This document shows, piece by piece, positions 21,533 through 24,500 of a stretch of DNA of 64,000 nt (within the stretch, counting starts at the first letter, position 1; every line of letters begins with the position of its first letter). A program made the position numbers and the translations under genes. Below the pieces are notes generated by a model that was not told the DNA's origin, searched no databases, and saw only the letters and a program-made list of their open reading frames with translations. The stretch lies in the NCBI RefSeq assembly GCF_002775205.1, contig NC_036447.1:3398501-3462500 (forward strand), written 5' to 3'. This DNA is from Xiphophorus maculatus. Taxonomy: Eukaryota; Chordata; Actinopteri; Cyprinodontiformes; Poeciliidae.

Positions 21533-24500
21533 TCAGTTTGGTGCTTCGATTCTTCTGGACATCATCATGGCTCTCTTGATTTGCTCGAACGAGACGAACA
21601 TGACGACGTTCCAGGATCCCAGTCTCAGAAACGAAGGCATAAACCTGGAAAACAAGGAAATGATCGATACCAATGTAGAGCTATCGTAAAAGTATTCATA
21701 CCTCCTAAACTATTTTGTTGGGATTTTGTGTAGCAAACCAAAACAAATTGTGCATCGTTGAGAAAAGGAAGGAAACTGTTTGTGGTTTTCAATCTTTTAC
21801 AATAAAAATCAGTTAAAAAAATTGTATTCAGTCCCACTGGTGTCAAAACTAAGGAGGATAGAAAGAGTATAAGATCAGATTTCAGTTGCCAGTGAATATC
21901 AATTGCATTTTATTCTGGACTTTGACTAGGCCATTCTAATATGAATGTCTTGATGTAAACCATCCCACTGTAGCTCTGGTTGTGTGTTTTTGTTTCTGTT
22001 CAGTGACCTTTGCCCCAGATGACTGTGTTACACAGAGTCTAACAGGTTTTCTTCTAGGATTGCTTGTAATTATTTCCACCCATCGGTGGCGCCCCCAAGT
22101 GGTGGCCAGGGGGTGCTGTGGCCACCCAGAGAAGATGACCACAATTGTAATAATTCATGTTCAGTTCATACAAACACATACAGACATCTTCAAACAAGAC
22201 ACAAATGTAAAACACAATAAATGAATACATGAAAGTCTGTGTGCCTATATTTACTTCCATTTTTGCTTCTTTCTTTGAAATTATTTTTTCTTTACTTCTT
22301 TCTTCACTTTTTTGTAATTCTTTTTCTTTAATGCCTTTGCTTTCTTTAGTTCATTCCTTACTTCTTTCTTTTTTTTACTTCTTTCTTAATCTTTACTTTT
22401 GTTTAATTTCTCTACAACTTTCTTTCTACTTTCTTTCTTTACTTCTCTTTCCTTGCTTTACTTTTTTCTTCTTTACAACTTTATTTCTTTCTTTGCTTTT
22501 TCCTTAACTTCTTTTTTCTTTACTTTCCTCTTTACTACTTTCTCTCCTTATTTGTTTCTTTACTACTTTCTTTCCATGTCCCACCTCACAACCTCTATGA
22601 ACATTTTCTACGGTCACCACTGCCATCCATTGTTCCATCTTTCAGCTTCCCTTTCTCTAGTATTGAACAGTATTCCCACAGCATGATGCAACCACCACCA
22701 CGTTTTATGATGTGGATATGGCTTTACCAGATTAGTTGTGTTTTCACCAACAGTCCTCTAATTCAGTAATCAGGTGGCTGATTGTGAAGACCCTCGGTTT
22801 TTATTTACCCTTTGTAAAACGCAGTTGGTCCCTCTTTAGTCATCATGGTCCAGGCGCAGTTGATGGCGCTGCGGTACTGGCCTGGCGGAGAGTTCATGTA
22901 TCTTGTTTTCACTACATCCACTGGGGAGGCAATCACCGTAGTGACAAAGCCTGCTCCGAACGCAGACACGAAGTGGCACGGAAGATTATCTGTAGGGAGA
23001 TAAAAAAGGATCCCATCAACTGTGAGGTGATTGTTCTGGGTCTGTGTCAGCAGTCTGAATAATCTGAATGGAGCGGAGAGGATGGTTGTGATAAATCTCA
23101 CATTAACTACAGTATTTACAGCTTTCTGTGACGGGACATTACAACATGTTCTGTACTGGGCTGGTTATCAGCTGCAGGGGAGGTGAGTGGGTGTGGGAGT
23201 CTGGTCCAATTGGTAAACTCCTCTCAAACAGAGGAGTGTTAGAGCATATTATGGAAGGTTGTTGAAAACACACTCCTATCTCATGACTATGTATTTTTAA
23301 GTAACTTTAGAACTTGATGTAAAGCTAAAAAAAAGTCGATTTTACATAATCCTGTTTCATTATTATATAATAAGTTGGCTTGCCATAGAGTCCCAGACTG
23401 ACGAACTCTTACCTGACAACAGTTTGTGTTTGAGAATGGCCTCTTTGATCAGGTCATAGGTAACCAGTTCTGTGCAGTTCACCAGTGCATTTCTTGTGAT
23501 GTTGGGTAATGTTCCTGAAGAACACACACACACACACACACACACACACACACACACACACACACACACACACACACACACACACACACACACACACACA
23601 CACACACACACACACACACACACACACACACACACACACTTAAAGCATTACTCAGCAACATTGTTTGTGGATTTTGTCCCCTGATGTGGGAACCTCTCCT
23701 CTCACCTTTCCACAGGCCTCGTAAGCCCTCATTGAGGTAGATTTGTCTGTAGGCTTGCATTGTGCCGTTGTAGCGCCGCGCCACGCCGTTCAGGTTCATC
23801 TGGGCCTGGAATCGAACCTTGACCACGTCGGTGGGTTGTGCAAACGACACGGCCATGGCACCTGTTGTGCAGCCGGCCAGTATCCGCATCAGCACGCCTG
23901 GATCTGGAGAGACGTGGAAGAGGAGGATGTTCTTAGCTTGTTGGGTTTTTTTGTTTTTTTTTTATAATTTTACATGTAGAATCTCATTGTAAATGGTGCA
24001 GTAAGAATGTCGCAATAGACGGACTGTATGATTTTGCTCATCCACCAAGCATGAAGAACCATGCTACATGCTAACCTGTCCTAAAACATCCTACCAAATA
24101 TTTTGGGAGTAGTTTCTAAACATAGTTTATTTGAGTTAAGACAAAACTCACTTACAAATAACCTTTTAGCAATATAGGAACTTGTATTACATAAATATTT
24201 TCTTACTTTTGATGAAGATAGGAAATTATTTCACTTATAACATGGGAAAATGTCTAGTTTTTAGTAAAATCATCTCCCAGCATACCTAGTACTTCTTCAT
24301 CAATATTAAGGATTTATTGACCTAGGACAAGTCCATGAATTGTGCCAAAAAAGTTACTTGTAAGTTAGTTTTGTTTTATTTTAAGTGTACTTAGAGATTT
24401 CCACTAGAAACTATATAAAAAGATTTTGTGTTTTTGCAGTGTGCAAGTGAAATCCTACTTTCTTTGCCTCCAGTGTAGAAGTTTTTCACGTTGTCATAGA

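Follow-up and report, generated by a model that had tools for sequence, protein, structure and literature searches.

The ucp1 locus

The window analyzed here, the whole stretch of 64,000 nt from Xiphophorus maculatus (contig NC_036447.1), carries on its minus strand an intact gene for an uncoupling protein, the exons of which are listed in Table 1 together with the elements discussed below. All of its introns are of the GT-AG type, with lengths of 1097, 555, 191, 423 and 1164 nt for introns 1 to 5, and the six coding exons (126/199/198/102/181/112 nt) equal those reported for sea bass UCP1 (126/199/198/102/181/115 nt; PMC3428666) in all lengths save that of exon 6, with 112 vs. 115 nt.

Table 1. 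Positions within the window of the ucp1 coding exons and of the elements in and around intron 3.
Feature	Position	Strand	Description
ucp1 coding span	21533..25880	-	six exons, intact reading frame of 305 residues
ucp1 exon 1 (coding)	25880..25755	-	126 nt
ucp1 exon 2 (coding)	24657..24459	-	199 nt
ucp1 exon 3 (coding)	23903..23706	-	198 nt; donor AAG/GTGAGA
ucp1 intron 3	23515..23705	-	191 nt, GT-AG, GTGAGA...TCTTCAG; 73 nt without the repeat
Candidate branch-point zone	23640..23652	-	intron positions 54-66; A at -138 (TGCTGAG), A at -126 (CTTTAAG), further As at 57, 58 and 65
(GT)59, ucp1 sense	23522..23639	-	intron positions 67-184; free of A and of AG
TCTTCAG	23515..23521	-	entire spacer between repeat and exon 4
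ucp1 exon 4 (coding)	23514..23413	-	102 nt, encoding residues 175-209 with the second helix in repeat 2 of the carrier; donor CAG/GTAAGA
ucp1 exon 5 (coding)	22989..22809	-	181 nt
ucp1 exon 6 (coding)	21644..21533	-	112 nt

Ten open reading frames of the window were scanned against Pfam, and three of them returned a match. The frame at 19569-19904 (+) contains an ELMO_CED12 domain with 29.4 bits against a cut-off of 23.3, and the one at 42381-42863 (-) a GRAM domain that, with 24.5 bits, is just 0.9 bits over its cut-off of 23.6; a GRAM domain is also present in TBC1D9. The third match, GRIN_C, falls into an open frame of 675 residues on the minus strand (1715-3742) that is likely a GPRIN-type gene. 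With each flank known by one domain, the ELMO_CED12 and GRAM frames fit the gene order ELMOD2-UCP1-TBC1D9 given in PMC3428666.

The encoded protein scores higher against UCP2 (chain 2lck, E = 2.3e-136) than against human UCP1 (8hbv, E = 2.8e-124), so that similarity alone cannot settle its identity as UCP1. The neighbors and the exon structure favor this name: six coding exons of conserved length lie between ELMOD2-like and TBC1D9-like flanks, and exon 2 has the 199 nt of UCP1, the corresponding lengths in sea bass being given as 217 nt for UCP2 and 202 nt for UCP3 (PMC3428666). A scan of viral contigs with exon 3 yielded no relative; four pattern stretches were returned, none of which was confirmed. 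We also considered as a parallel a variant of rainbow trout UCP2A in which exon 4 is extended by 157 bp and intron 3 is shorter by the same amount (PMC1559616). It was set aside, as that gene is described with eight exons, six of them coding, and its exon 4 is not an obvious counterpart of the one studied here (PMC1559616). Note that a 31-copy array of the tetranucleotide TCCA (26911-27035, 99% match) precedes the start codon of ucp1 by about 1 kb when read in the sense of the gene.

A GT microsatellite at the acceptor of intron 3

Intron 3 was highlighted by the original prediction for a 59-unit GT repeat next to the acceptor of exon 4, and its coordinates, its length of 191 nt and the unit count all proved correct when re-derived from the sequence. 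The plus strand reads as an uninterrupted, 100% pure (AC)59 at 23522-23639, and TCTTCAG alone separates it from the exon, exactly as had been stated. No other AC/GT array in the 64-kb window exceeds 13 units. With both strands of the window considered, no stretch devoid of A is longer than the one in intron 3, which measures 123 nt compared to 55 nt for the runner-up. Under random placement, the probability that one array ends within 10 nt of any of the five ucp1 acceptors and on the correct strand is 0.0004, a rough and post hoc figure in which the enrichment that UG repeats are reported to show around splice sites is not considered.

Provided that the assembly gives its length correctly, the arrangement in intron 3 is genuine and an extreme case within a known class, a UG repeat at the acceptor that would enforce a distant branch point. 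Such repeats close to splice sites have been described before, and as it stands the case exemplifies their class and does not constitute a new mechanism. Among the matches listed for literature on microsatellites and splice variants of fish ucp1, none dealt with the intron 3 repeat by its title. Other arrays in the window are a pure (AAT)27 at 4316-4397 and, on the plus strand at 34691-34744, a composite TG run of 6.5 units, a G run and then (TG)13.

Position of the branch point

It had been proposed that any branch point must lie in or before the repeat. The second of these options stands, while the first is not available to an adenosine branch point, as the repeat is free of A. Non-adenosine branch points are rare, and one at this site would void the argument from distance. 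Going upstream from the acceptor AG, the first A is that at intron position 66, at a distance of 125 nt from the acceptor G. A vertebrate branch point also requires a spacing of about 50 nt from the donor; this leaves five candidate adenosines, at positions 54, 57, 58, 65 and 66. Human branch points are located 29.3 ± 11.9 nt from the acceptor with an optimum at 19-23 nt (PMC9508853), and intron 3 has no candidate adenosine at this usual distance.

Two of the candidates, A54 in TGCTGAG and A66 in CTTTAAG, match the consensus YNYURAY in six of seven positions, with TGCTGAG presenting a G in place of the expected Y. A third match of this quality, at -150, is too close to the donor. The three motifs with at least six matching positions are at chance level for intron 3, where 1.7 are expected and 22% of 2000 shuffles reach three.

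The AG exclusion zone upstream of the acceptor spans 122 nt in intron 3 and 52, 26, 28 and 34 nt in introns 1, 2, 4 and 5, respectively; in intron 3 alone does the zone extend to 100 nt or more, as expected for a distant branch point. At its 5' end this zone shows the chance-level six-of-seven motifs and the TG repeat in place of a pyrimidine tract. Seven AG-free gaps of at least 122 nt occur in the window (four on the plus and three on the minus strand, with 3943 and 4161 AGs, respectively), and the gap in intron 3 is therefore not unique. Of 67,334 human introns, 838 were reported with exclusion zones of ≥100 nt, of which one-fifth to one-half were taken as true cases of a distant branch point; the exons concerned were expected to be alternatively spliced often, and those with large zones were more often cassette exons (PMC1431707). 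From its sequence, exon 4 of ucp1 is predicted to be a distant-branch-point exon.

Strength of the splice sites

Acceptors were scored with a matrix of approximate vertebrate frequencies, and the scores serve for ranking only. On this rough scale the acceptors of introns 1 to 5 obtained 2.7, 10.6, 8.4, 13.8 and 13.1, placing that of intron 3 second lowest. The lowest one, below the acceptor flanked by the repeat, belongs to intron 1 (24658-24677, minus strand; 2.7 with the same rough matrix). With its score of 8.4, the true acceptor of intron 3 outranks each of seven further AGs from this intron and exon 4, the best of which reached 1.4; this set covers the AGs downstream of intron position 20 and those of the exon up to the penultimate one. 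The two AGs within the candidate branch-point zone (ends at 55 and 67) are poor acceptors, with -6.4 and 0.3. A cryptic acceptor at the AAG just before the repeat was rejected, given this score of 0.3 and a distance of merely 9-12 nt from the candidate branch points upstream.

The claim that the repeat replaces the polypyrimidine tract was overstated. Positions -23 to -4 are indeed poorer in pyrimidines than in the other introns (12 of 20 vs. 14-18), but the signal of the tract is not simply abolished: they include 11 U compared to 7-11 in the other introns. The exon 4 donor matches the consensus in 8 of 9 positions and is the strongest of the five. An acceptor that is second lowest, yet above the other AGs, combined with the best donor makes inclusion of exon 4 plausible despite the geometry of the intron.

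Probable displacement of the branch point

With a probability of roughly two thirds, we consider that expansion of GT units within the interval between branch point and AG of a compact intron has made exon 4 a distant-branch-point exon that is mostly included. From the anatomy of the intron, the distances, the absence of A and AG and the intact frame we infer a history, a choice of branch point, a level of inclusion and an effect of length as follows. The microsatellite would have grown between the branch point and the AG of a formerly compact intron 3. U2 would be placed at one of the adenosines within the 13 nt that precede the repeat (positions 54-66), most likely on A54 of TGCTGAG, and the alternating U-rich repeat together with UUCUUC may function as a degenerate polypyrimidine tract. 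The repeat being free of AG, the first well-placed AG would be the authentic acceptor, about 125-137 nt downstream. The strong donor would aid the definition of exon 4, which should be mostly included, and a longer repeat would bring a modest drop in efficiency, if any.

The tendency of the class with large AG-free zones toward alternative splicing (PMC1431707) speaks for more skipping than is assumed here. When the repeat is subtracted, A54 comes to lie 19 nt from the acceptor G, within the human optimum of 19-23 nt, and with 12 GT units the distance is 43 nt. Intron 3 may thus once have been compact, its own tract having expanded in place.

Alternative explanations

Dinucleotide microsatellites are common and often mis-sized in assemblies, and the 59 units might be an artefact, with a much shorter true tract and a branch point at normal distance. 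A repeat of about 12 units would place the candidate branch points at 31-43 nt from the acceptor, a distance covered by the normal spread in humans, and would be no more than an ordinary UG-rich tract. The flanks and the exon borders around the repeat are intact, and we regard an error of this size as distinctly unlikely. The original prediction rather envisaged a silencer, and length-dependent skipping of exon 4 through TDP-43 is plausible: proteins of the TDP-43/CELF type would coat the UG tract and block U2AF and the AG, so that in longer alleles the exon would be skipped often enough to matter for function. That UG repeats close to acceptors are in general linked, through TDP-43, to the skipping of exons is backed by the reports in PMC12171016, PMC13343711 and the preprint PMC13174678, and CFTR exon 9 provides the precedent (PMC12171016). 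TDP-43 is described to cover about six units (12 nt) of a UG repeat with picomolar affinity (preprint PMC12697283); 59 units would, by our computation, hold up to nine such footprints. Bound close to a splice site, the protein represses that site (PMC13343711), in human data TARDBP binding correlates with GT length (preprint PMC13174678), and human cassette exons are enriched among those with a large AG-free zone (PMC1431707). In its layout the ucp1 repeat also agrees with the CFTR type, at least six UG units directly upstream of an acceptor, with 59 units at a distance of 7 nt. However, the effect in CFTR is described as tied to a very short T tract and as requiring an exonic silencer, while ucp1 exon 4 has a strong donor (8/9) and UUCUUC adjoins the AG. 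Strong skipping would moreover remove a helix from the product of an intact gene and should be selected against, and skipping to a functionally important degree appears rather doubtful to us.

Pairing of the repeat with another part of the pre-mRNA could also join the splice sites, as in the zebrafish introns with AC/GT tracts that function without U2AF2, and about 10% of zebrafish introns are reported to carry such tracts (PMC6093180). In the minimum free energy fold, intron positions 5-10 pair with UUCUUC at the end of the intron. In a scan run without a shuffled control, the best 60-nt tile of the pre-mRNA, located in intron 4, gave -34.8 kcal/mol with a 60-nt piece of the repeat, a value that falls between those for (AC)8 (-28.4) and (AC)10 (-37.0) and mildly favors bridging, and some tiles from exons and introns reached -30 to -35 kcal/mol through mixed and wobble pairs. 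Nevertheless, the ucp1 pre-mRNA (25900..21500) contains no AC run above 7 nt, the one of 7 nt being located in intron 5, and pairing of the repeat with the 66 nt that precede it in intron 3 is at the level of shuffled sequences (98 of 200 as good). As a whole, the intron does not stand out in its folding (z = 0.84), with 158 of 200 shuffles doing equally well, and a six-pair link from end to end is present in 23% of 300 shuffles. The (AC)n required downstream of the donor is absent from intron 3 and from the pre-mRNA, and with no AC partner tract a reading of intron 3 as an AC/GT-bridged, U2AF2-independent intron of the zebrafish type is not supported; structural bridging in general seems highly improbable.

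Note that standard RNA folding does not model pUG quadruplexes. A pUG fold comprises 12 repeats, double folds arise from 24, and double and triple folds were reported for (GU)36 and (GU)50 by native gel; among human dinucleotide repeats, pUGs alone were found enriched near splice sites (PMC12276007). TDP-43 is reported to take the unfolded UG tract, its binding and the pUG fold being mutually exclusive (preprint PMC12697283), and in fission yeast an RNA structure that shortens the distance from branch point to acceptor aids the use of a distant acceptor (PMC9508853). The 118-nt tract has room, by computation, for four folds of 12 repeats. Together, the pUG fold, its mutual exclusivity with TDP-43 and the fission yeast data make possible a reading of (UG)59 as a ruler set by its length and as a switch: up to four quadruplexes would shorten the effective distance from branch point to AG and exon 4 would be spliced, whereas bound TDP-43 would hold the tract in an extended state and reduce inclusion. 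We hold this for quite improbable. If true, repeat length, the level of TDP-43 and perhaps temperature would tune the output of functional UCP1 in an ectotherm. By title and the start of the abstract, none of the matches listed joined pUG folds with branch-point distance.

With a displaced branch point, ucp1 would represent a clean natural case of a metabolic gene in which each nucleotide gained or lost by a hypermutable repeat changes the spacing of branch point and acceptor by as much, the branch zone being confined to about 13 nt. Both the range of branch-point distances tolerated by splicing and the antagonism of TDP-43 and pUG folding would be addressable in a single minigene.

Predicted consequences of exon 4 skipping

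Skipping of exon 4 had been predicted to keep the frame and to remove 34 residues including R182 and E190, and this holds for the protein encoded in the window, which would be reduced from 305 to 271 residues. According to the alignment, exon 4 encodes one entire helix of repeat 2, and a UCP1 without it, with one of its six helices missing, would most likely be non-functional. Skipping, if it occurs, would consequently be a down-regulator and not the source of a new isoform.

Comparison with known systems

The human exons with distant branch points, PTB exon 11, GABBR1 exon 23 and alpha-tropomyosin exon 3 (PMC1431707), resemble ucp1 exon 4 in the large AG-free zone before the acceptor that leaves no place for a branch adenosine at the usual position. 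As described there, they differ from ucp1, where the zone consists of a pure microsatellite and the candidate branch point lacks a long pyrimidine tract downstream. Zebrafish AC/GT introns that do not depend on U2AF2 (Lin et al. 2016, as cited in PMC6093180 and PMC9198270) have in common with ucp1 that they are teleost introns with a (GT)n upstream of the acceptor, but the ucp1 pre-mRNA has no complementary (AC)n, near the donor or elsewhere. Human pUG RNAs are reported with at least 12 UG repeats and are enriched near splice sites; the ucp1 tract lies at a splice site and would have room for up to four folds. The arrangement (TG)m(T)n in CFTR intron 8, before exon 9, is alike in having a UG repeat at the acceptor. 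In ucp1 the repeat has 59 units rather than the 11-13 reported for CFTR, TCTTC takes the place of the T tract, and of the two it is in CFTR only that skipping is known. Skipping of CFTR exon 9 disables a membrane protein, and in this it is like the skip predicted for ucp1 exon 4.
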